This document shows positions 4,256 through 16,020 of a stretch of DNA of 64,000 nt, piece after piece (positions within the stretch are counted from its first letter, which is position 1; every line of letters starts with the position of its first letter). Source of the DNA: Melioribacteraceae bacterium (GTDB lineage Bacteria > Bacteroidota > Ignavibacteria > Ignavibacteriales > Melioribacteraceae). Below the pieces are notes generated by a model that was given only the letters and a program-made list of their open reading frames with translations, had not been told where the DNA came from and did not search any database. The DNA lies in the NCBI GenBank assembly GCA_027030245.1, contig JALVFE010000016.1:434001-498000 (forward strand), given 5' to 3'. The translations under genes and the position numbers were made by a program.

Positions 4256-7200
4256 TTATTGAGCAACAGCTAATTTTAGAAGTTTACTTTTTTGCAAAGA
4301 AGGCATATCTATAAGGACTATATAAATTCCGCTTGCCACTTTCAGTCCGTTTTCATTCCGTAAATCCCAATTTTCAAACTGTCCGGCTTTATTATGATAA
4401 ATCGTTTTTATAATTACACCGCTTAAATCGAAAATACGTATTATCGCTTTTTCAGGCAGGTGTGAAATGATTACGTAATTATTCCTTTCCCCGGCAAATT
4501 CTTGTTCTCCGGCAATGTAAGGATTCGGAAAAATATTTATTTTCTCCACGTCTTTTTTTGCCAACTCAGGATCAATAATTTTTCCGGGCGAAGTATATTC
4601 GAATTTATCGCCGGGCAAATTGATTTTATTAGGAATTATCTTCAGAGTGAATTTGGAATTTAAATAAGGTACACCACCCCGTTTTTTGGGCCAAAGAAAA
4701 TACATACTTCCGTTTTTAATTGCGCTGTTAACATCATTATAAAAAAGCGGATCATATTTTGAGTTGCTGATCAATAAAAATTCATTACCTCCTTGTAAAG
4801 CAAATTGTTGACCATCCCAGCCCAAATCCCAAATCATATTATTATTTCCGTTTATTGAGTCCTCGACGAAAGAAACATTTAACTGAACCGGATTCAATTC
4901 GTCGCTCACATCCCAAGCCGTAAGCGGCAACCAACCGGTACCTGCGTACATATAATTTTTATCTTTTCTGTAAACTGCTCCTTTCGACCACCCGTTTTCT
5001 TCGGAAGGTGTTTGGGAACCTTGGCCACCGGTAAACCTCAATTCTACGGGAATGTAATTGTACATCACTTTCGATGAAGTCCAGAATTTACCGCCTATAT
5101 CCAGTCCGCCGTAAAATTGGGAACCACCCCAGTCATAACCTGAAATCCAACGTATTCCATGGCTTTCAACTTCTTTAATTCCCTTGGGCGGACTAATTAC
5201 TTTGGGTAAAATTCCCCTGACGATGGGATAATTATTATCGCCGGTTTGATTTTTCTGTTTTTCAACCAAAATATTTCCACTATATTTTTCTTTTAAATTC
5301 CAAACCACGTTATTATTTAAGGTATCGAAAGTAATAACAAAAGTTTTCCCGTCGGTTGCGTTGGGATCAATTACAATTGGAAGAACCCTGCCCTCGCTTC
5401 TTCCGGTGTGAATGGTAAAGAGCGTATCACCAAACGATGCGTTTAATCTTTCTCCGGGCGGTTCTGTCTGCGGAATAACAGCTTTGGATTTGTAAGCGGA
5501 TCGAATTATGTGAAAGGGAAAAAGCGGATTATCATTATAAGCATAGGACACTATTGCAAAATAATATTCTTTGCCGTTATATAATTTCTTGTGATTAAGG
5601 GAATCCCGTTCGACTAAAAGGAACCTCGAAATTCCGTTATCTTTACCGCTTAACCTGAGTTTGGGAATTTCATGGAAATTTTTATCCCTTACGGTATCGT
5701 AAACCGCTGTTATGCCATTTATTAAATCGAAGTTAGCAATTTTAATTCCTTCTTCAAGTGTGGAATTAGCGGACGGAAGTTGATAAACCTCGTAACCTTC
5801 AAATTTATACCCGTCTTCAGAGAAATTTTCTATTGCGTTTCTTTCTTTGTTTGACAATCCCCATTTCAAAATAATTTTTCGATTAAGAGGGCCTAATTCT
5901 AAAGATGGCTCGGGAATTTCCGGCAGTTTGAATTCGCTATTTATCAATTCACGAATTTTTTTTACGTTACCTTTCAACACGGTTATACTATTTAACGGGG
6001 ATAACCCTTGCCCAACTACAAGTGCAATAGTAGTTTCAACCGTATCGCCAATATTTAATTGAAATGGTCCGCTAACAGCATGGAAACGTCTATCAGACGG
6101 AGATTCCATCACACCATCGATAATTCCACTTCCGGAAACCGGATCGCCCGGGAAAAGATAAACGCCGTATGGAGTGGTAACCCCGTAACTTCCGGGAAAT
6201 TTAATTTCTTTGGGATATGCCGGATCCGGCATCCTTCCACGTAAAATGTTGTAATATTCGAGAGCTCCTTCATAAGTAAACGGAGGAACAACAATGACAT
6301 CATTTGCTGCATCGGAAACGAATGTAGTCATGGGTTTAGGCGAAACATATTTATACCCTTTTCTCCAACGCAAATTAACAAATGCACTATCGAGAGGGTT
6401 ACCCGAATATTTTGCGACTCCGCTTAAAAACGCATATCCCACAGCAGGCGGCGCCATATTAAACTGCGAATAAACTTCATCGTTATCATTACCGTTGTAA
6501 ACATATCCCAAATTAAGCGTTGTATCGCACCCTGCCAAATCATCCGCCCAATGCCCCAAATCAATATCTGTCCATTGGCAAATATACATACTATCAATAA
6601 AGGAGTTTTCCCGGGATTTAGACGTTCCCGTATAAGTGATATCCACTTTTTTAAAAATCACGTTACCCAGCACACCGTAGTAATCATATCCCCAATAAGT
6701 TTCCATTATCTGTAAACCAACCGGAATGGATTCATAAAGCGATTCGGAATAGGAATCATCGTATTTAATAAAGATTGTTTGAGTTGCACCGGGTACTCCT
6801 GGTATATCAATCTCCGGATTATATTTTCCGTCTTTATCCACATCTTCGAAAATTGCACCTTCTTCCCACGGCCATTCATTCCAATCAGTTTCATACATTT
6901 TTTTAAGTTGCCGGAGATCTTCACTTGTTATTTTTTCTATGGGTTTCATAAAATAATCGGATGCGTCCAACTCGAGATTAGCGGTTTTGTAATCACTCCT
7001 TACCCTGAATATTCTTGTAACAGGTCTACAACCGGTACTGTATATATTACCGTTTACCCTTACTTTTTGTTCTTGTCCGTCGTAAACCAAACAGCCCCAA
7101 ATAATCCCTTCGCTAAAAACAACCCCCGCATTTTGCCCGTTAGGATAATTTCCGTTCCAAGAGCCGTTGTTTACTTTTGAATCATGAAATCCGTTACTGC

Positions 7201-7369
7201 CTACCCAGGAAGTAATATTGCCCACATCAATTATACTTTCTTCCACGTTACCGGTATCTTTTTTAGGTATTAGTTTATTATACTTGGCTAAATACTGAGG
7301 AATGACTGTGCTGTTGAAAATGATTTGAAAAAAAATAAAGATGCAAAGTAAGGGAAATTTTTTTATCAT
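4256..7369 (-). CDS. T9SS-sorted giant secreted protein B (function unknown)
   Basis: This 1,037-residue protein has a signal peptide (about 1-24) and ends in a type A T9SS C-terminal sorting domain. That domain starts at an I-F-P-N-P-Y segment about 85 residues from the end, followed by the R-I-F-D-L-S-G strand and a G-I-Y-I-V strand. Family knowledge says such domains carry cargo through the outer membrane for surface anchoring or release. The body is similar along its whole length to the protein at 8663-11815, so the two are tandem paralogs. Both carry a Gly/Trp-rich N-terminal block and a calcium-type D-x-D-x-D-G loop (here residues 176-188). No enzymatic motif is recognised. The start has a GGGGG ribosome-binding site and its own upstream promoter (7417-7445). 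Confidence 0.88.
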   Translation of the reverse strand: MIKKFPLLCIFIFFQIIFNSTVIPQYLAKYNKLIPKKDTGNVEESIIDVGNITSWVGSNGFHDSKVNNGSWNGNYPNGQNAGVVFSEGIIWGCLVYDGQEQKVRVNGNIYSTGCRPVTRIFRVRSDYKTANLELDASDYFMKPIEKITSEDLRQLKKMYETDWNEWPWEEGAIFEDVDKDGKYNPEIDIPGVPGATQTIFIKYDDSYSESLYESIPVGLQIMETYWGYDYYGVLGNVIFKKVDITYTGTSKSRENSFIDSMYICQWTDIDLGHWADDLAGCDTTLNLGYVYNGNDNDEVYSQFNMAPPAVGYAFLSGVAKYSGNPLDSAFVNLRWRKGYKYVSPKPMTTFVSDAANDVIVVPPFTYEGALEYYNILRGRMPDPAYPKEIKFPGSYGVTTPYGVYLFPGDPVSGSGIIDGVMESPSDRRFHAVSGPFQLNIGDTVETTIALVVGQGLSPLNSITVLKGNVKKIRELINSEFKLPEIPEPSLELGPLNRKIILKWGLSNKERNAIENFSEDGYKFEGYEVYQLPSANSTLEEGIKIANFDLINGITAVYDTVRDKNFHEIPKLRLSGKDNGISRFLLVERDSLNHKKLYNGKEYYFAIVSYAYNDNPLFPFHIIRSAYKSKAVIPQTEPPGERLNASFGDTLFTIHTGRSEGRVLPIVIDPNATDGKTFVITFDTLNNNVVWNLKEKYSGNILVEKQKNQTGDNNYPIVRGILPKVISPPKGIKEVESHGIRWISGYDWGGSQFYGGLDIGGKFWTSSKVMYNYIPVELRFTGGQGSQTPSEENGWSKGAVYRKDKNYMYAGTGWLPLTAWDVSDELNPVQLNVSFVEDSINGNNNMIWDLGWDGQQFALQGGNEFLLISNSKYDPLFYNDVNSAIKNGSMYFLWPKKRGGVPYLNSKFTLKIIPNKINLPGDKFEYTSPGKIIDPELAKKDVEKINIFPNPYIAGEQEFAGERNNYVIISHLPEKAIIRIFDLSGVIIKTIYHNKAGQFENWDLRNENGLKVASGIYIVLIDMPSLQKSKLLKLAVAQ

Positions 7370-7416
7370 TTTTCCCCCAAAACCATATCATTTACAATAA
7401 GTTAAATATTAAAATT

Positions 7417-7445
7417 AATATACAATTTAATATAATTATATTCAA
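7417..7445 (-). promoter_or_regulatory. Sigma70-like promoter for cargo gene B
   Basis: On the minus strand TTGAAT (7440-7445) and TATATT (7417-7422) are separated by exactly 17 nt. The element lies just downstream of the terminator at 7493-7523 and about 48 bp before the ATG at 7369. The cargo B gene could therefore be transcribed independently of the operon before it. The surroundings are very AT-rich, which raises the chance of a random match. Confidence 0.5.
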
Positions 7446-7492
7446 TAAAATAATCGGGAAATTAAAACAGACAAAAACATGTAAAAAAACAA

Positions 7493-7523
7493 AACGGTTT
7501 TACCCGTTCAGGGTAAAACCGTT
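7493..7523 (-). terminator. Rho-independent terminator after the PorV/PorQ-like gene
   Basis: A perfect 13-bp stem (AACGGTTTTACCC and its complement) closes a 5-nt loop. On the minus strand it is followed at once by a T-rich run (TTTGTTTTTTTAC). It begins 37 bp past the stop of the barrel gene at 7560. This looks like a strong terminator ending the five-part surface operon before cargo gene B. Confidence 0.88.
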
Positions 7524-7559
7524 ATTAGAAAGAATAGAGGAGAGGAATCAACTATTATT

Positions 7560-8600
7560 TTAGAAACCTACATTTAAAGAAAATACATGGTTCGAATCGA
7601 AGTATTTTACCGGAACATAGGCATAATCCACGGATAAATCAATACCGGTAATTTCTTTGAAGTTCAAACCAGCACCTAAAGAATAATCTTCGAAAATGTT
7701 AGGTGCATTTTCCGAAGCTTGAGGCGAGAAAATATATCCTCCTCTTACATAGAAAATTGAATTATATGAGTATTCCATTCCAAATTTATAGTCATCATAA
7801 GTATAGTTGTTATTGAAATAAGCTGTAGAGAATGTAATATCATTTAATTCATCAATTTGCGCCTTATAGGAAAGTCCGATTGAGAGTTCGGAAGGCAAAG
7901 GATTTTCTGCAGTAGCAAATTGATAAAAAGTAGTTCCCCTTGAGCTGTTCGGGTCGGTTGCTTCAACCCATGTAGCATTTCCTTCGTATTTCATAGAACC
8001 GCCTAGGTTTTTATAAACTATACCCAAATCTAAGCCTTTAGTATCAAAAAGGTCACGATATTGTACACCGAAATCGAAACTGAAACCAGTTGCTTCGGCT
8101 CGATGGAAGCTTTCGTTAATCACATTAAAGTTCAAGCCAATTGCAATTCTGTCAGTTAAAGTTTTCGAGTAGGTAAGTCCAACAACAAAAAAGTTAGGGT
8201 TAATAACTTGGCCGGTTCCATCTGGTTGATCCATGGTTGTCACATTAATCTCACCAATATTAAGATATTTAAAAGAGAAACCAACACTACCTAAGTCACC
8301 GAATTTTCCACTAACGGCAACATAATTAATGTTCATATCTGCGATATAAGAACGATATGAAAACATTGCGTTAGCAGCATTTTGGTTGAAGTCGACACCA
8401 GAGGGGTTCCAAAATATTGCATCTAACCCACTAACATTTGCTACTTGCGAACCACCCATAGCTAAATACCGGGCACCGATGGGAATCCTTAACTGTGCTG
8501 CTGCCGAAGTACCAGCACGATTCTGACCGCTACCGAAGGTAACCACAGTAGATGCGCCAAGTAGAAGAAAAATAAGCAACAACTTGTTTAATTTCGTCAT
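7560..8600 (-). CDS. PorV/PorQ-family outer-membrane barrel protein
   Basis: With the start at 8600 the product has 346 residues. That start is chosen because GGAGG lies 6 nt upstream, whereas an in-frame ATG at 8612 overlaps the ribosome-binding site itself. A signal peptide (about 1-24) is followed by the family hallmark A-R-Y-L-A-M-G-G and W-N-P-S-G. The rest is alternating beta strands typical of a FadL-like barrel, with a C-terminal aromatic residue (N-V-G-F). PorV shuttles T9SS cargo from the Sov translocon to the attachment complex, and PorQ and PorP belong to the same superfamily. Its position between two T9SS cargo genes suggests a dedicated cargo adaptor. Whether it is the general PorV or a locus-specific paralog cannot be told from this window. 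Confidence 0.88.
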   Translation of the reverse strand: MTKLNKLLLIFLLLGASTVVTFGSGQNRAGTSAAAQLRIPIGARYLAMGGSQVANVSGLDAIFWNPSGVDFNQNAANAMFSYRSYIADMNINYVAVSGKFGDLGSVGFSFKYLNIGEINVTTMDQPDGTGQVINPNFFVVGLTYSKTLTDRIAIGLNFNVINESFHRAEATGFSFDFGVQYRDLFDTKGLDLGIVYKNLGGSMKYEGNATWVEATDPNSSRGTTFYQFATAENPLPSELSIGLSYKAQIDELNDITFSTAYFNNNYTYDDYKFGMEYSYNSIFYVRGGYIFSPQASENAPNIFEDYSLGAGLNFKEITGIDLSVDYAYVPVKYFDSNHVFSLNVGF

Positions 8601-8627
8601 AGTTTCCTCCATAATAAAATTTTAATA

Positions 8628-8649
8628 GCGCCGGTTATTTTCCCGGCGC
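8628..8649 (-). other. GC-rich intercistronic hairpin
   Basis: GCGCCGG (8628-8634) and CCGGCGC (8643-8649) form a perfect 7-bp, all-GC stem around an 8-nt A/T-rich loop in otherwise AT-rich DNA. It lies between the stop of cargo gene A (8663) and the start of the barrel gene (8600). On the minus strand the 3' side is TATTAAAATTTTATT, so it could act as a partial terminator. It could equally be a 3'-end stabiliser that sets different transcript levels for the two genes. Confidence 0.6.
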
Positions 8650-8662
8650 CAATTTATTAAAA

Positions 8663-11600
8663 TTAATAGACTTTCAATATTTGTTGTTCTTGAACAACAG
8701 CCAATTTCAGAATTTTGGTTTTACCGAGCTTAGGCATATCGATATGTACTATGTATATACCGCTAGCCACAGGATAACCACTTTCATTTTGTAAATCCCA
8801 TGTATCAAATTGGCCTTTTGTTGCATCATGTTTAATCATTTTAACCATAACACCACTTAAGTCGAATATTCTGATAGTTGCTTCTTCCGGCAAATGATTG
8901 AACGTAACATAATGTTCATCTCTGGAATTTTCCCTGCTATGGAATCCATAATAAGGATTCGGGAAAACATTGATTTTTTCAACGTCTGCTTTTTCTAAAG
9001 CCAGACTTGATTCTACCTTTGGAGCAGTAAACTCGAAAACATCCGAAGGAAGATTGACAAAATTAGGTATAATATCCATAGTAAAGGGTGCTTCCAAATA
9101 CGGATGGTTTCCTCTAGCACTAGGCCAAATTGCATATAATACATTAGTAATCGGAGCCCAATTATTGTCGTCGTAAAAAGTACCAGGGCTATAAGAAGTA
9201 TTATGTATAAATATATACTCTCTACCGCCAAGGTCTGCGAATGATGTGCCATTCCAACCCATATCCCAGAGATGGTTTGCGTTTCCATTAGCAGAATCTT
9301 CTATAAAGCTTATGTCTAATTGTCGCGGATTATCAGGATCACTCATATCCCACGCTGTGAATGGCAACCAACCTAATCCGGCATAAACATAACCTAAATC
9401 GCGTCTATAAGTTGCACCTCTTGACCATCCATTAGCTTCAGAAGTATCTGCAACCGTTCCACCAACAAATCGTAATTGAACTGGTACGTAATCTGCTGCT
9501 GTTAAATTGGAGCCAAAGAAATTGATACCGAGATCCATTCCACCAAAGAATTGAGATCCACCCCAATTTGTTCCGCTGACCCATCTTTGACCAGCGTAAT
9601 CCCAGCTTTTAATTGCAACAGGGGGACCGACAACTTTTACCATTAAACCGTCAACGATTGAGTAAGAGTTATCACCACTTTGGTTGGTTTGATTTTCAAG
9701 TACCGTTTTTTGAATAGTTACGTCAGTTAGATTCCAAACATAACCGCCGGCAAGTGTATCAAAAGTAACTTGATATTTATGTCCAGTTGTTTTACTAGGA
9801 TCGATTACTAAGGGGATAACCGAACCGTCACTTTTTCCTGAAATATGTTTTGCTTCTAATGTATCGCCCGGCATAGAAGAATACTTTACACCCGGCTTAG
9901 GATATTGAGGAGTTACCTGCAAAGTAACGGGCGAAGATAATAATGCATGGAAAGGTAGAAGCGGGTTAGGATTGTAAGCATAAGAAATTACGGTAAAGTA
10001 ATAAGATTGCCCATCTTTTAATGATGTTTTATGTACAGCATCTTTATCAATTACGAGGAACCGTTGAAGCCCATTATCCTTTCCACTTGCTACTAAAGTA
10101 GGAATATCGGTACCATTTACATCTTTTACGGTATCGTAAATCGCTGTTATCCCATTTTCGATATCCCATGTACCTAATAATACTCCGTCTTTAAGCTTTG
10201 ATGAAGGACCTGGCAATTGATAAACCATGTATCCTTCAAAATTATATCCTTGATCAGAAAAGTTTTCTATTTTCTTTACGCTGTTTTCATCGCTTCCCCA
10301 ATTAAGAACAATTTTATTATGCAAAGGAGTTACGGAAACTGATGGAGGATCAATTGACGGTAGCTTAAACAATTGATCAAATACTATCTGTGCCGTATTG
10401 TCGTTAGATTTCAACTTGGCAACACTATTCAAGTTATCCGTTCCTAATCCACCTACAAGAGCCAATACAACTTGCGCTGTATCGCCTAAATTCATAGTAA
10501 TCGGTCCGTTTATAACCATTATTCTTCTATCACTCGGTCCTTCGTAAACACCGTCAATCTTACCCGTACCGGCAACCGGATCGCCATCCAACAAATAAGT
10601 TCCGTAAGGAGTAAAAGTGGCTACATCATCGGGGAAAGGTTTTGCATCCGGGTAAGGCGGATCGGGTAATTTACCTCTCATCAAATTATAAAATTCGAGA
10701 GTTCCATTATAATCAAAACCCGGATCGCTCCATGCACCACCGGCTGAGAAGTAAATAAAAGAACTCATCGGTTTCGGGTTTACATATTTATAACCTTTTC
10801 TCCATTTCAAATCAAATATTGCGCTGTCCGCGGGATTTCCGGTATAAACAGAAACACCTTGCAAGAAATCATATCCAACTGCAGGTGGAGCCAAACCTAA
10901 CGGGGTAAAAACAGCGTCATCTGGTGAAGAGCTATAAGCATAGCCCATATTCAATACTGTATCGCAGCCTGCAAAGTCGTCTCCGTAATTACCAACGTCC
11001 GGATCAACCCACTGAACAATATACATACTGTCGATTCTCGAATTTGCCGCCGAGGTCGGTAATCCTTTGTAAACCATATCCATTTTTTTGTAAATAACGT
11101 TTCCGAGAGCGCCGGTATAAGCATAAGCCCAATAGGTTTCGGAAACTTCCAAACCGATTGGAGGCGAACCGTATAACGAAGCAGAATACGCATCATTATA
11201 TTTAATAAACATGGTTTGGGCTGCGCCCGGGACACCTGGAATATCAACGTCAGGATCATATTGACCGTCTCCATCAACATCTTTATAAATTGCGCCCTCA
11301 TCCGCAGGCCATTCCATCCAGTCTTTTTCGTACTGATCCCTTAATTGTTGAATATCACTTTCAGTTACGGCACCCAAACTCTTACCAAAGAAGGTAGCCG
11401 CATCCCTTGTTAAATCACCGGTTTTGTAATCCGGTCTTACTCTGTATACTCTATCTAATAATGCTTTACATCCGGTGTCGTAAGTATTTCCGTTAACACG
11501 GACAAGGGGAGTAGATCCATCATTAACTTTACCTCCCCAAACAACACCTTCAGCAAAAACCGCTCCAACGTTCAATCCGTTGGGGAATGCACCGTTCCAC

Positions 11601-11815
11601 GATTGAGCAACAACCCAATCATGAAAACCATCTTTTCTGACCCATGTAGAAATATTGTTGATATTTATAAGACTTAAATCAGGGTCAATTGTACTGACTT
11701 TGCCTAATTTGTTATTCCCACTTTTCCTTTTCCCTTTATATTTTGCAGGGGATTCGGTTAGAAAAGCGAACAATAACATTAGTACGATTAATCCATAAAC
11801 TTTTATTTTTTTCAT
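8663..11815 (-). CDS. T9SS-sorted giant secreted protein A (function unknown)
   Basis: The start at 11815 gives 1,050 residues. It follows GGAGG by 9 nt, while the longer TTG-initiated frame at 11833 would place translation over that ribosome-binding site. A signal peptide (about 1-24) leads into a Gly/Trp-rich block, then a calcium-type D-x-D-x-D-G-x-Y-x-P-x-x-D loop at 179-191. The C-terminus is a T9SS sorting domain (F-P-N-P-Y, R-I-F-D-L-S-G, A-S-G-I-Y-I-V), extended by a short tail E-Q-Q-I-L-K-V-Y that paralog B lacks. The body is beta-rich with no known enzyme motif. The gene follows the TonB-dependent receptor by 49 bp and precedes the PorV/PorQ-like barrel by 62 bp. A structural or adhesive surface role is an inference only. 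Confidence 0.88.
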   Translation of the reverse strand: MKKIKVYGLIVLMLLFAFLTESPAKYKGKRKSGNNKLGKVSTIDPDLSLININNISTWVRKDGFHDWVVAQSWNGAFPNGLNVGAVFAEGVVWGGKVNDGSTPLVRVNGNTYDTGCKALLDRVYRVRPDYKTGDLTRDAATFFGKSLGAVTESDIQQLRDQYEKDWMEWPADEGAIYKDVDGDGQYDPDVDIPGVPGAAQTMFIKYNDAYSASLYGSPPIGLEVSETYWAYAYTGALGNVIYKKMDMVYKGLPTSAANSRIDSMYIVQWVDPDVGNYGDDFAGCDTVLNMGYAYSSSPDDAVFTPLGLAPPAVGYDFLQGVSVYTGNPADSAIFDLKWRKGYKYVNPKPMSSFIYFSAGGAWSDPGFDYNGTLEFYNLMRGKLPDPPYPDAKPFPDDVATFTPYGTYLLDGDPVAGTGKIDGVYEGPSDRRIMVINGPITMNLGDTAQVVLALVGGLGTDNLNSVAKLKSNDNTAQIVFDQLFKLPSIDPPSVSVTPLHNKIVLNWGSDENSVKKIENFSDQGYNFEGYMVYQLPGPSSKLKDGVLLGTWDIENGITAIYDTVKDVNGTDIPTLVASGKDNGLQRFLVIDKDAVHKTSLKDGQSYYFTVISYAYNPNPLLPFHALLSSPVTLQVTPQYPKPGVKYSSMPGDTLEAKHISGKSDGSVIPLVIDPSKTTGHKYQVTFDTLAGGYVWNLTDVTIQKTVLENQTNQSGDNSYSIVDGLMVKVVGPPVAIKSWDYAGQRWVSGTNWGGSQFFGGMDLGINFFGSNLTAADYVPVQLRFVGGTVADTSEANGWSRGATYRRDLGYVYAGLGWLPFTAWDMSDPDNPRQLDISFIEDSANGNANHLWDMGWNGTSFADLGGREYIFIHNTSYSPGTFYDDNNWAPITNVLYAIWPSARGNHPYLEAPFTMDIIPNFVNLPSDVFEFTAPKVESSLALEKADVEKINVFPNPYYGFHSRENSRDEHYVTFNHLPEEATIRIFDLSGVMVKMIKHDATKGQFDTWDLQNESGYPVASGIYIVHIDMPKLGKTKILKLAVVQEQQILKVY

Positions 11816-11864
11816 ATACAAAAACCTCCACAAGTTTAAATTTATGAGGTAATATTATTCTTAA

Positions 11865-14855
11865 TTAAAAATTAACCAGAACACCTAAACGAATTTGCCT
11901 TGGACTGCCGAATAAGTCATAACCATAAGTCGAAAATACATGTTGTCTATTTCCTAAATTAATAGCTTCATACAAATCAGCAAATCTTTCAGTAAACCTT
12001 TTACTTGCCAATATTTTTTCGGCATCGGGAGAATGCAAGAAACCATCGTCGTATGCATTACCCGTTTTTTGATAAACGTTTATTACATTCTTTGTATTGA
12101 ATAAATTTTGAACATAGAAATAAAAATTGAAATCGAATCCACCGATATTAACTGTTTTATCGACTCTTAAATCTACGTTAAATTGCCATGGTGTAGTGGA
12201 AGAATTAGGCGGACCAATCGGACGTCTGCCTCTTGTATCCGATGAAGGAATCAAACCACCCGTCCATGCTTGAGCTTGTCCAAGTCCTAATTGCTTTGCC
12301 ACAGTATATGGGTGACCACTATTGAAATTAATTAAGACGTTAAATCCAAGTCTTTCTAAAATCGGTCCTCCGTCGTTCTCTCCAAATCTGTAATCGAAGA
12401 AAATACTTCCGGAATGTGTGAAATTATAAGTCAATGGAAGTAGAATAGTCGGAACTTCATTATTCACATTAACAGAACCAACGCCACTACCAATAAAAGA
12501 GTTAGTTCCTTTTGCATCCGAGTAAGTATAGTTTACTTGAGCGGATACTCTTTCGACTCTTCTTAATTTAAGGCTTACTTCTAAACCTTTTGTAGTTGCA
12601 AAGTCTTGGTTAATATAAGCAACATATCTACTTGTAAAAGCACCCGGATCGGTTACAATACTTGCATACTGAATTTGTCCTTTAATATCCTTATAAAATG
12701 CTGTTATATCAACCGCTGCATAGTCACTGAATTGTTGGGCAAATCCAACTTCGTAAGAAGTGGTTCTTATCGGTTGAGGATCGTATGCAACGGGATCGGG
12801 GAACATATTAGCTCCTTGTAATATTTCTACCGCCCTGTACATTCCTTTGTATGCAATATCAAGACTCGGTGATTGAACAAATTTTCCGTATTGCAAATGG
12901 AAAACCGTTCTGTCGGTAACAGGGAAAGATAAACCAAGACGCGGTGAAATATAACTATATGTACTTGATTCACTTAATGCCGAATCCGGTAAAATATGTT
13001 TCTCCTCATCAATAACAGGTCTCTTAGGATTAGCTAGTGCGTAACTGTCCATATTAATATAATCATATCTTAAACCTAAATTCAAAATGAGATCTTTTAC
13101 TTCCAATCTATCCTCGATATAAGCAGAAGCCAAAACCGGGTGTTTTGGAGCAAACAAACCGTCATCGACTTCATTGCCAAAAACATCGTAACCATAATTA
13201 TTAAATGAACGATACATTTTATTACCAATTAAAAATTCCAACGAATCTCTATTCGATGCTAGTTCGGGATTATCCCGTATTGTTCTAACCACACTGTTTA
13301 ATCTTCCAACGAAATAACTTCTAACCGTCCAACGTTGATAAGAAGCCCCAGCTTTAAGAGCATGTTTTTTCAATTGCGTAGTATACGCAATTGAACCACC
13401 AATATAACTATTATCAAATTTGGAATAATTACTTAATCTAGTACCAGGCCTATTGAATGGAAATCCGTAAAAATCAAATGTAGCAGGCCCGTTTGTATAT
13501 GTTCTGTATTGGAATCCGTATTTCGAATTTTCCAAACTATCGCTGTATGCCATTACATCATCTTTGAACACCGGATCATAACTTTTGCCTCTGCCGTTAT
13601 AGTAATTGACATGAGCATCCAAATATGAATTCGAACCTAATAAGTATGTAAGTTTAAGATTAAGCAATAAGTTCGAGTTATCAGCTAAACCAATTCGTTC
13701 TTGATTAAACAAATTAAACAAATTTGGGCCACCTCTTTGACGCCTTTGCCAAGTAAAAGCAGCTGCCAATCTAATTAGCAAAGGATTTCCGTCATAAAGC
13801 AAGGTACCATTTAAAGTATATCTATTTCTCATTCTTCCTGGAATATTACCGGGTTGCCATTTTAATATTCTATAATCCTCTTTGTTTCCACCAAGAGCAC
13901 CGGTATCATATACTTTAGTAGTATCGAAAAGTGCTCCGTCGGAATAGGCAACAGGATTTCCGTAAAAGAAATGAGGGTTAAAATCCCGTGTAAAATTATT
14001 TTCACCTGATACGAAAAGTTTCAATTTGTTTTTAATAATGGGTCCGCTTGCGGTAACTACATAATCCGAGTATCCGTAAGAATAAGTTCCCAAAAATTCC
14101 TCTCCCGGATAATTACCGAAATTATCGGTTTCGGCTCTTAACGAAAAGTGATATTCATCCGTTCCGGTTCTAAAATCTTGCGAAACAATACCTGCATTAG
14201 CGTTTCCATATTGTGCTGTATATCCACCCGCTTGAACTAAAACTTCTTGCAATGCATCGGGGGTAACGGTTACCAACGAACCACCGCTGCTATTTAAAAT
14301 GTTTTTTACATCTGCGCCTTCCAATGTATAACCTGTTTCATCCGCCCTACTACCCCGGATATAAGTAACACCGTTCAATTGAACGACACCGGGCTGCAGA
14401 GCAACAATAGCGTCTATACTTCTGGTAGGCAATGAATTAATATCTTCAGAACTTATAATTCTAATAGCATTGGTAGCAGTTTTTTCAACCAATGGTTTTT
14501 GAGCAACAATAACAACGGTTTTGGTTGCCACCTCTTGAGAGGGTAGTTCAAAATTAACCTCGGAAGTTAATCCGGAAACAACCCTAACATTATCAACAAC
14601 AACATCTTGATACCCAATATACGAGGCTCGTACAGAATACGTACCCGGGGGCAAATGTGTAATTAGGAATTCCCCGTTAGCATCCGTAGCGGCACCGAAA
14701 TTAGTACCTTTCACAATCACATTTGCGCCTATTAAAGCTTCTCCCGTCTGTTTATCGATAACTTTCCCGGCAATTCTACCAGAACCGGTTTGTGCCAAAG
14801 AAAGTGAGAAGCTGATTAGCGCAAAAAATAATATGGTATAGAATTTTCGGATCAT
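11865..14855 (-). CDS. TonB-dependent receptor with CarboxypepD_reg-like domain
   Basis: From the start at 14855 (GGAGG 7 nt upstream) the product has 996 residues; an upstream in-frame ATG at 14894 lacks such a site and overlaps the lipoprotein gene. Domains in order are a signal peptide (about 1-21), a carboxypeptidase-regulatory-like beta-sandwich (about 25-110, with G-x-V-x-D-x-x-T-G-E-A-L and G-E-F), a plug (about 115-230) and a 22-strand-type barrel ending in phenylalanine. This is the SusC/RagA-like arrangement for TonB-driven import, although no SusD partner is next to it. It lies between the lipoprotein gene (32 bp upstream) and cargo gene A. The ligand is unknown. Some Bacteroidota receptors of this layout interact with secreted surface proteins, which would fit the neighbours. 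Confidence 0.9.
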   Translation of the reverse strand: MIRKFYTILFFALISFSLSLAQTGSGRIAGKVIDKQTGEALIGANVIVKGTNFGAATDANGEFLITHLPPGTYSVRASYIGYQDVVVDNVRVVSGLTSEVNFELPSQEVATKTVVIVAQKPLVEKTATNAIRIISSEDINSLPTRSIDAIVALQPGVVQLNGVTYIRGSRADETGYTLEGADVKNILNSSGGSLVTVTPDALQEVLVQAGGYTAQYGNANAGIVSQDFRTGTDEYHFSLRAETDNFGNYPGEEFLGTYSYGYSDYVVTASGPIIKNKLKLFVSGENNFTRDFNPHFFYGNPVAYSDGALFDTTKVYDTGALGGNKEDYRILKWQPGNIPGRMRNRYTLNGTLLYDGNPLLIRLAAAFTWQRRQRGGPNLFNLFNQERIGLADNSNLLLNLKLTYLLGSNSYLDAHVNYYNGRGKSYDPVFKDDVMAYSDSLENSKYGFQYRTYTNGPATFDFYGFPFNRPGTRLSNYSKFDNSYIGGSIAYTTQLKKHALKAGASYQRWTVRSYFVGRLNSVVRTIRDNPELASNRDSLEFLIGNKMYRSFNNYGYDVFGNEVDDGLFAPKHPVLASAYIEDRLEVKDLILNLGLRYDYINMDSYALANPKRPVIDEEKHILPDSALSESSTYSYISPRLGLSFPVTDRTVFHLQYGKFVQSPSLDIAYKGMYRAVEILQGANMFPDPVAYDPQPIRTTSYEVGFAQQFSDYAAVDITAFYKDIKGQIQYASIVTDPGAFTSRYVAYINQDFATTKGLEVSLKLRRVERVSAQVNYTYSDAKGTNSFIGSGVGSVNVNNEVPTILLPLTYNFTHSGSIFFDYRFGENDGGPILERLGFNVLINFNSGHPYTVAKQLGLGQAQAWTGGLIPSSDTRGRRPIGPPNSSTTPWQFNVDLRVDKTVNIGGFDFNFYFYVQNLFNTKNVINVYQKTGNAYDDGFLHSPDAEKILASKRFTERFADLYEAINLGNRQHVFSTYGYDLFGSPRQIRLGVLVNF

Positions 14856-14886
14856 AATTTTTCCTCCAAAATAATTAAACTTTTTT

Positions 14887-15621
14887 TTAGTCATCTGTAA
14901 AGACCTTGCTTTTTATGTTTGCAGTAGCATCATAAATTACCGCAGTATATCTTTTTTGCTGATCCAATTTAGCAGTAAAAGTAGTTAAAGTATCGGAACC
15001 CGATATAACATAAAACCTATAATCAGCTGCTTTAATTTGAGAATAAGCTGCGCCTTTTCCCATGCCTATAGTTTTAGGGAATGCAACGGTAGTATCGATA
15101 CCCGAAGCTACAGCGATAAATCCATCAATAGTAGCATCGGACGAACCGTTGAAGAAAGCAATTTGGCATGAATCTTTCGGGAAAAACTTCTCACTGTTTG
15201 GAGAACCCTTGGTTTGAAAAGTATATCTCTGAACAAAATTAAAAACATCTCGCTCCCCAGCGGGTCCGAAAACAAAATATCTGATTTTTCTGTCTGTATC
15301 GGCAGTAATTTTAAATTCCTCGGTTCCGCCACTGTGTTTGAAAATCATAGTCTTTGAGCCAGCAGCTACTTCGGTGAAAGACCCAGCGGGTGATTCTGCA
15401 CCGAACGCTATGTTCCCAAAAGACACTGTGCTACCGTCTTTAGAGACTAAAGAAACCTCGGCTTGAGAAACTCCTTCGGCTACATTGACTATATTAACCT
15501 GGCTCCGAAAATCGAAATGATCCGGAATCGGTTGAACACTTGTATCAACGCACCCGGTTAAATATAGTACAATACCGACGCCGAGAGTAAACAAGATTCG
15601 TACTTTCCTATTTTTTAGCAT
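14887..15621 (-). CDS. DUF4397-like surface/periplasmic lipoprotein
   Basis: The start at 15621 follows an AAGGAGGG ribosome-binding site and gives 244 residues. An in-frame ATG at 15669 has no ribosome-binding site. The N-terminus is a lipoprotein signal with lipobox L-T-G-C and lipidated C24. Two related beta-rich halves follow (about 35-125 and 140-244). The second, with F-F-N-G-S-S-D-A-T-I-D-G-F and Y-T-A-V-I-Y-D, matches the DUF4397 fold seen in exported proteins. No catalytic residues are evident. It is the first full gene of the surface operon, immediately before the TonB-dependent receptor, so it may be an accessory lipoprotein of that receptor in the way SusD-type proteins are, although it is not SusD-like in sequence. 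Confidence 0.78.
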   Translation of the reverse strand: MLKNRKVRILFTLGVGIVLYLTGCVDTSVQPIPDHFDFRSQVNIVNVAEGVSQAEVSLVSKDGSTVSFGNIAFGAESPAGSFTEVAAGSKTMIFKHSGGTEEFKITADTDRKIRYFVFGPAGERDVFNFVQRYTFQTKGSPNSEKFFPKDSCQIAFFNGSSDATIDGFIAVASGIDTTVAFPKTIGMGKGAAYSQIKAADYRFYVISGSDTLTTFTAKLDQQKRYTAVIYDATANIKSKVFTDD

Positions 15622-15707
15622 AATCCCTCCTTGAGTATTGGATTTAATTAATTTTTCTGATAAGCCCATATTTCACGAACAATCAGATTCAGGAAATCGT
15701 TGTTCAA

Positions 15708-15767
15708 CTAATGGGTATAACTTTTGAATTTTAATAATTTAGATGTGAATAGTAAATATTTTATCAT
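15708..15767 (-). CDS. Possible 19-residue leader peptide
   Basis: ATG at 15765-15767 follows AAGGAGAGG at good spacing, and the frame runs 19 codons to a TAG at 15708-15710 (peptide MIKYLLFTSKLLKFKSYTH). It ends 86 bp before the lipoprotein start and begins just after the hairpin at 15802-15823. It could be a regulatory leader peptide or a tiny membrane-associated peptide. It has no run of one amino acid of the kind used in classical attenuation. Chance occurrence is possible; the ribosome-binding site is the main support. Confidence 0.35.
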   Translation of the reverse strand: MIKYLLFTSKLLKFKSYTH

Positions 15768-15801
15768 AAATCCTCTCCTTTTGAATGTATAAAAAATTAA
15801 A

Positions 15802-15823
15802 CTTCCTAATCTTAACTAGGAAG
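15802..15823 (-). terminator. Hairpin with T-rich tail in the operon leader (candidate attenuator)
   Basis: CTTCCTA (15802-15808) pairs with TAGGAAG (15817-15823) across an 8-nt loop. On the minus strand the 3' side reads TTTAATTTTTTATAC. The hairpin lies between the promoter at 15992-16020 and the first gene, so it may attenuate the surface operon. Alternatively it ends read-through from trxA. The stem is short with only three G/C pairs, so strength is uncertain. Confidence 0.45.
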
Positions 15824-15857
15824 CATTATCAAACCCACCTCTTTCAGATGCTAATAA

Positions 15858-15876
15858 TATCAATTTTTTATTGATA
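15858..15876. repeat. Short AT-rich inverted repeat
   Basis: TATCAAT and ATTGATA form a perfect 7-bp inverted repeat around five T residues. It lies in the transcribed leader of the surface operon. It could be an operator half-site pair or a weak hairpin. In such AT-rich DNA a chance origin is likely. Confidence 0.3.
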
Positions 15877-15991
15877 ATTCAACTAATTTTTTAAAACCCA
15901 CACTATACTCTGATAATCAAAAATTTATTTGAATCACTTGAATTCCAGGTAAGAACTGTAAAATTATATTGATAAATATAAATCCTTATCG

Positions 15992-16020
15992 AATTTAACA
16001 TAACCATTTTTTTTTGTCAA
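15992..16020 (-). promoter_or_regulatory. Sigma70-like promoter of the surface operon
   Basis: On the minus strand a perfect TTGACA (16015-16020) is followed after exactly 17 nt by TAAATT (15992-15997). The predicted start is near 15985, about 365 nt before the lipoprotein ATG, implying a long leader. It is the best promoter match seen in the window. Confidence 0.7.

Follow-up and report, generated by a model that had tools for sequence, protein, structure and literature searches.

What is conserved, and what might it do, in a run of five minus-strand genes of a Melioribacteraceae bacterium that encode a lipoprotein, a TonB-dependent receptor (TBDR), two large secreted proteins (cargo B and cargo A) and a barrel of the PorV family? 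The genes lie in a window of 64,000 nucleotides (assembly GCA_027030245.1, contig JALVFE010000016.1, positions 434,001 to 498,000; coordinates below count from the first letter of the window), which comes from a genome of 3.8 Mb in 40 contigs, here called the home genome. An earlier note, made from the letters alone, had read all five genes as one conserved, dedicated surface assembly linked to type IX secretion (T9SS). We find that the conserved unit is three genes: the TBDR, a large T9SS cargo and the PorV-family barrel. Whether the cargo sits docked on its own barrel beside the receptor, in a role like that of SusD beside SusC though without homology to it, we regard as an even call; such a unit may offer another route to nutrient capture than the SusC/SusD pair of gut bacteria. 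The core genes and the parts of cargo B discussed below, including its C-terminal domain (CTD), are:

11865..14894, minus strand: TBDR, core gene 1, with CarboxypepD-reg N-domain, plug and barrel domains
8663..11833, minus strand: cargo B, large T9SS-type secreted protein, core gene 2; start uncertain (TTG listed, ATG 18 nt downstream)
10367..11689, minus strand: N-terminal domain of cargo B, modelled beta-supersandwich (model residues 43-483)
8690..9013, minus strand: NPY-type CTD of cargo B, PorZ-like by profile, sequence and fold matches
7560..8612, minus strand: PorV-family barrel, core gene 3; 14 main strands in the model

A receptor, a cargo and a barrel recur as a unit

We searched the home genome with cargo B and the PorV/PorQ family model as queries and read 17 stretches (L-numbers denote loci, G-numbers genomes). 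Nine units of TBDR, cargo and PorV-family barrel were found: the focal one, L044, L045, L046, two in L047, L048, L049 and L050. Eight keep the strict order and one, L044, is rearranged with extra genes between. The home genome has 13 barrels over the family cut-off, of which nine lie inside these units; the other four are a housekeeping-type PorV (L043, 250.9 bits) that adjoins PorU, a PorQ that passes its cut-off (L051, 249.3 bits), one at L052, and one at L053 that is nearest PorV2 yet under the PorV2 cut-off. Eight of the 11 module CTDs lie directly upstream of a barrel gene. Among the 102 home matches to the T9SS tail model PF18962 two do so, namely the tail of the PorU-PorV pair and one module CTD itself. 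In the L044 variant the cargo CTD and the barrel stand about 6.6-7.2 kb apart, a spacing that has its like in several genomes.

As an independent test, a CTD profile trained on the home genome only was run on 11 other genomes. At E up to 1e-12 it found 82 matches, and 75 of these reached at least 75 bits. Set against 120 of 135 barrel matches, 58 of the 75 are followed on their own strand, after 78-312 nt, by a PorV-family match, and 73 have one within 10 kb on either strand. The 17 without a direct barrel are varied: six have it at 6.6-7.1 kb, as in L044, one at 7.7 kb and two at about 1.1 kb. Another six are additional cargos of two clusters in G302, where a different cargo stands at the barrel; the two that lie beyond 10 kb belong to these six. 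The last two, in G124, have only an opposite-strand barrel, 6-10 kb away. Only one of the seven weaker matches (below 75 bits) adjoins a barrel. With the barrels as the starting point, 59 of the 120 carry such a CTD directly upstream. We then read a sample of 25 modules out of 47 pairs, the 47 being what remained of the 58 when ten cargo B matches and one pair near a contig start were excluded. TBDR, cargo and barrel were contiguous on one strand in 24 of the 25, and a single open reading frame (ORF) intervened in the last.

A scan of the genome collection for relatives of cargo A and cargo B returned 66 loci with 91 cargo-family ORFs. A CTD scoring at least 75 bits is present in 49, and 31 of those 49 stand as TBDR, cargo and barrel. 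For six of the remaining 18 the contig ends beside the cargo, and what can still be seen next to it in L103, L105 and L112 is no module partner; two follow a barrel as second cargos (L060, L091), and at L094 a TBDR is present and no barrel was recognised; the last nine are weighed below. The records with triads, most of them metagenome bins, carry the deposited labels Melioribacteraceae, Ignavibacteria, Bacteroidetes, Gemmatimonadetes, Latescibacterota, KSB1, Chlorobi and Neomarinimicrobiota. Among cultured organisms, Stygiobacter electus has a focal-type unit (L087). Across the phylum, cargo B was matched at 1e-30 in at least 88 of 395 genomes, including 24 of 26 of the home family, the figure being a lower bound since at most two candidates per genome were scored. 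SprA was over its cut-off in 12 of 12 genomes, home included.

Some cargo relatives keep other company: at L116 (7150-21505), and also at L096, L102 and L125, they stand, partly in tandem, beside housekeeping-type genes. One of these, at all four loci, we take to be HemW; a second, at L102 and L125, is presumably NusA.

The cargo C-terminal domain resembles those of PorZ and PorU

The two cargos share 51% identity (531/1043 columns), in keeping with their earlier description as paralogues. The T9SS sorting domains claimed for both fared unequally: in TIGR04183 (type A CTD, cut-off 23) cargo B scores 25.3 bits and cargo A 20.7, under the cut-off. Other standard models gave less. PF18962 (cut-off 27) reaches 15.5 bits in cargo B, has no match in cargo A and stays under cut-off in all 11 module cargos of the home genome, and the T9SS type B model PF13585 (cut-off 27) scores 14.4 bits in cargo A and has no match in cargo B at E up to 0.1. 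Neither cargo qualifies as PorZ itself: the whole-protein model NF052228 (cut-off 260) scores 42.3 and 42.4 bits, over the C-terminal stretch only.

In the module CTD the motif PNPY is invariant and a W is conserved. A profile made from the 11 examples in the home genome recovers its own 11 at 126 bits or more, the next score being 61.5. As the profile was built from these same CTDs, each was left out in turn, which gave 81.8-131.5 bits against at most 58.3 for other ORFs of the fetched home stretches. After the module CTDs, the highest scores go to a subtilase-like protein whose end resembles PorZ (L058) and to a PorU2-like one (L059). The former spans 2382-6569 of L058 (1395 aa), and ORFs of similar length show similar weak CTD matches in several other genomes.

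Compared with the PDB, the CTD profile matches PorZ (1.8e-6) and PorU (7.6e-4), the only matches below E 0.2; the next is FlgD at 0.22. An insert between the W and a G-Y, before the last strands, is aligned through in both PorZ and PorU. The family scan (E up to 0.1) points the same way: the PorZ model is matched by seven of the 11 module cargos (six at 0.01) and the PorU model by five, while five ordinary T9SS tails match the M36 and M6 models in all five cases, PorU in two and PorZ in none. Among module cargos the M36 model finds cargo B only, weakly (0.0052). In the predicted structure of cargo B (pLDDT 81.5, 33 rows), residues 938-1042 superpose on the PorZ CTD with Z 13.0 and a root-mean-square deviation (rmsd) of 1.9 over 93 residues at 25% identity. 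A Foldseek ranking places PorZ first (2.1e-8) and PorU next (4.2e-6), with low whole-chain TM-scores. The sorting domain of cargo B, weak by the standard models, is thus supported because its fold matches the PorZ CTD. By sequence and predicted fold, we assign the module CTD to the class of the PorZ and PorU CTDs; the insert alone is not exclusive to it. The CTDs of PorU and PorZ are reported to be unprocessed and to have an extra hairpin after the fifth strand (PMC11285876), and that of PorU is reported to stay on PorV, that of PorZ on PorQ (PMC10202324).

A different kind of cargo-barrel pairing was seen at L052 (7257-10735), where two tandem PorV-family-like genes, one just under the cut-off, follow a gene for a 527-aa protein whose CTD has the W-to-G-Y insert.

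A PorV-family barrel and a receptor distant from SusC

The earlier call of a PorV/PorQ-type barrel between the two cargos is borne out: the protein passes the PorV/PorQ family model NF033709 (177.3 bits, cut-off 90). It is neither the housekeeping PorV (NF033710, 91.3 bits against a cut-off of 250) nor PorQ (NF033711, 90.2 bits against 220), and PorP/SprF (TIGR03519, cut-off 90.55) gave no match at E up to 0.1; two sister barrels match TIGR03519 weakly, at 31.5 and 28.4 bits. The model of the barrel (pLDDT 85.3, 29 rows) matches PorV first (8gl6_F, 1.9e-15; 6h3i_F, 7.8e-14) and then FadL (6.4e-10). Grouping with a housekeeping PorV, which the earlier note took to speak against a dedicated barrel, is not seen by model score; a tree groups the focal-type barrels, leaves the paralogues unordered and is mostly unresolved, with long branches meeting.

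The receptor has the carboxypeptidase-regulatory-like domain expected of it (CarboxypepD-reg matched). Its score in the SusC/RagA model TIGR04056 is 61.7 bits for a cut-off of 368.25; eight sister receptors score at most 104.9, two of them without a match. No gene for SusD/RagB (PF07980) is present among the five focal proteins, and the home genome has one SusD match, elsewhere than the focal locus. An operon for SusC, SusD and SusE has been described in Melioribacter roseus (PMC3534657).

The cargo body and its sugar context

Residues 43-483 of cargo B fold, in the model, as a beta-supersandwich of the kind known from glycoside hydrolases (GH) and phosphorylases, with matches to dextran dextrinase, glucodextranase, GH116 and GH94-type enzymes. 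The best match is 9ju0, a dextran dextrinase (Z 18.9, rmsd 3.3, 255 residues); we take the dextran dextrinase and glucodextranase matches to be GH15-type. After the supersandwich the model is mostly strands, with no alpha/alpha barrel, the catalytic barrel being absent from the model. The VIA fold-match list is dominated by the N-terminal domain, and residues 570-930 are barely covered. By sequence, cargo B found nothing in the PDB at E up to 0.1. An hhalign comparison pairs the focal cargo (A3) with four sister cargos (A5: L045, L046, L048, L050) over 871 columns, which is most of their length (1.7e-60).

Three of these sisters stand beside sugar-related genes: L046 adjoins GH94, GH2 and LacI genes, L048 a glucoamylase and a CBM9 protein, and L050 a CBM20/48 protein. 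The earlier note had set the module apart from a polysaccharide utilisation locus. This holds for the focal locus, which does not have the SusC/SusD pair with carbohydrate-active enzymes that marks such a locus and whose five proteins gave no match to a SusD, glycoside hydrolase or peptidase family; it does not hold so simply for the three sisters. When the flanks of the 25 sampled modules were compared with 22 random places, ordinary T9SS tails were found in 30 of 98 module flank genes and 3 of 88 controls (Fisher p 5e-7). Proteins with LacI domains (3/98) and RpiR-type domains (3/98) occur in the module flanks, and neither is among the control families listed; the comparison covers the 25 most frequent families out of 111 and out of 130, and does not reach less common sugar enzymes or single regulators.

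Additions to the unit and control elements

All five ORFs lie where they had first been placed, each with an N-terminal signal that looks hydrophobic on inspection by eye, and LTGC in the lipoprotein resembles a lipobox; this agrees with the view that all are exported. The gaps are 31 nt from TBDR to cargo B, 50 nt from cargo B to barrel and 190 nt from barrel to cargo A. The remaining features are:

14887..15669, minus strand: DUF4397-like lipoprotein, lineage-specific addition; 8-nt overlap with the TBDR gene
4256..7369, minus strand: cargo A, lineage-specific paralogue of cargo B
4259..4567, minus strand: NPY-type CTD of cargo A, found by the CTD profile
7493..7523, minus strand: terminator-like hairpin, 13 pairs and a T-run, 3' of the barrel gene
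8628..8649, listed on the plus strand: GC-rich hairpin, 7 pairs, in the gap between cargo B and barrel
15992..16020, minus strand: promoter-like site TTGACA, 17 nt, TAAATT; consensus match only
15801..15824, minus strand: terminator-like hairpin in the leader

A conserved unit of five genes is ruled out. Homologues of the lipoprotein (24.7 bits in the DUF4397 Pfam model, under the cut-off of 30.6) occur in only two of the 66 related loci, L060 and L061, as do those of the downstream alpha/beta-hydrolase (esterase); a second cargo after the barrel is likewise seen in two of 66; and the 13-pair hairpin in the 190-nt gap comes before cargo A. The lipoprotein, the second cargo and the esterase are lineage-specific additions. 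What gene order supports of the earlier reading is a surface unit with a cargo-linked and putatively dedicated barrel.

Terminator-like sites in the region number 8 where 7.2 are expected, so the weight of the 13-pair hairpin lies in its length and place and not in the count. Its position suggests that cargo A may be a separate or a read-through unit. The leader hairpin stands downstream of the promoter-like site and ahead of the lipoprotein gene, and the two together are a possible attenuator; a known RNA family was looked for and no Rfam match was found there at gathering scores. Around focal-type units, genes that recur in the 66 loci encode GWxTD (16), acyltransferase (14), thioredoxin (12), SDR (12) and acyl-CoA dehydrogenase (10) proteins, many of the loci being truncated. 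The GWxTD-domain gene of the window is at 1280-2647.

How the unit may work

From the alignment of the cargos, the sugar-gene flanks, the T9SS-tailed flanks, the single SusD match and the presence of SprA, we infer a capture-and-import complex. The cargo would be exported by Sec and then through the SprA translocon by way of its PorZ/PorU-type CTD. This CTD is probably left uncut and would stay bound to the module's own barrel; if it is retained there, the barrel acts as a membrane anchor and not as a shared shuttle. The cargo body, with its supersandwich and further beta domains, would then lie beside the receptor and probably capture a substrate from outside the cell (in several of the sister modules a glycan, most likely), which the receptor would import with TonB energy. 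Whether this describes a separate TonB-linked capture class of Ignavibacteria and neighbouring FCB phyla, in which SusD is generally replaced by a T9SS-delivered partner that retains its signal domain and sits on a private PorV-family barrel, is a tentative proposal, which we hold a little less firmly than not.

Several observations weigh against this capture-and-import complex. At the focal locus no sugar gene adjoins the unit and the neighbours look housekeeping, and SusC identity had to be rejected for the module receptors, all of which are far under the SusC cut-off. The supersandwich is a predicted fold and no proof of sugar binding; moreover, no link emerged when the focal cargo was compared by profile with the GH94 protein from L046, which leaves the predicted fold as the sole ground for the supersandwich. 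In a further profile comparison, the shorter L047 and L049 cargos share just the CTD with the focal cargo. As for retention, the W-to-G-Y insert is also present in five of the 11 distinct other tails listed, including those of L058, L059 and L052, and the extra hairpin of PorU and PorZ is reported to be functionally not relevant (PMC11285876); the insert is therefore a family mark and not proof of retention. The pairing itself has gaps. In the 11 other genomes, 61 of the 120 barrels have no such CTD directly upstream, among them 11, a single one in each genome, whose scores of 310-335 bits suggest a housekeeping PorV. Nine relatives with the NPY-type CTD (L089, L096, L102, five in L116, and L125) have neither an adjoining barrel nor a receptor; these scattered homologues, of the kind that the earlier note would have counted against itself, are a minority confined to five loci, and they indicate that a private barrel is not strictly required and that a strict one-cargo-one-barrel rule does not hold. 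Finally, one point in favour has its limits: the distances of CTD, barrel and TBDR correlate over the nine home units (r 0.83-0.93, permutation p up to 3e-4), which speaks for joint inheritance rather than contact and may only reflect duplication of whole units.

The barrel might instead be a cargo-preferring PorV shuttle and nothing more, with PorU cutting the CTD and attaching or releasing the cargo, and the receptor functionally unrelated and merely co-transcribed. The barrel is indeed of the PorV family with PorV as its best structural match, PorU is present beside PorV, and cargo B passes the type A model and weakly matches the cleaved-type M36 model. We nevertheless consider a mere shuttle rather unlikely, as the CTD profile favours PorZ and PorU over the other solved CTDs, the PorZ model separates seven of 11 module cargos from the ordinary tails, and the receptor is contiguous in all but one of the sampled modules. 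That same receptor could be a PorF-like helper in secretion or assembly, which would make the unit a private export or assembly pathway with no part in uptake. Such a link has a precedent in Cytophaga hutchinsonii, where PorV is reported to have co-immunoprecipitated SprA and the TBDR CHU_1606, itself 32.8% identical to PorF (PMC8564354). The three sister modules beside sugar-related genes and the LacI- and RpiR-type regulators among the flanks argue otherwise, and we judge a helper role improbable. Least credible, and in our view very improbable, is a FadL-type channel for a hydrophobic compound, with cargo and receptor serving the same substrate: FadL and toluene channels do appear in the fold search, but they rank behind PorV by several orders of magnitude in E, and a T9SS-type CTD stands directly ahead of the PorV-family match in the 58 of 75 cases given above.

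The unit matters in two ways. The literature, as far as the papers cited here go, presents PorV as a single carrier common to type A cargo and treats cognate barrels as a type B feature; here the PorV family has many cargo-linked members. It has been proposed that cognate PorV-like barrels protect CTDs from cleavage (PMC10202324), and this hypothesis becomes testable on a large natural set of cargo-barrel pairs. If the unit does serve uptake, it would go some way to account for polymer capture in a genome that has nine such units and a single SusD match.

Comparison with known systems

We found no description of a TBDR-cargo-PorV unit in the open-access literature as covered by titles, abstract starts and the matches listed, which is weak evidence of absence. 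The closest relatives by CTD sequence class and barrel family are the PorZ-PorQ and PorU-PorV pairs, whose partner is likewise reported to keep its CTD and stay bound (PMC10202324, PMC11285876). Those pairs are parts of the secretion machine, whereas here a large substrate-type protein is involved, in several copies per genome and with a TBDR. Type A substrates are reported to leave the translocon on PorV and type B substrates on alternative carriers that anchor them (PMC10994853, PMC9143113). Type B cargo with its cognate PorP/SprF offers a second parallel, a cargo gene clustered with that of a FadL-fold barrel reported to be a surface anchor (PMC9143113); our unit differs in its PorV-family barrel, a CTD under the type B model and a TBDR. 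BamG of the Bacteroidota BAM complex is a FadL-fold barrel reported to bind a surface protein through extracellular loops (PMC12578637). It belongs to a barrel-assembly machine, and its fold match to the focal barrel is weaker than that of PorV (1.4e-7 against 1.9e-15). The SusC/SusD system, finally, has the same outline of a TBDR gene beside a gene for a large surface protein, repeated in the genome and with some copies in sugar loci. In the present unit the receptor is under the SusC cut-off and there is no SusD; the partner would be delivered by T9SS and held by a barrel instead of a lipid anchor.

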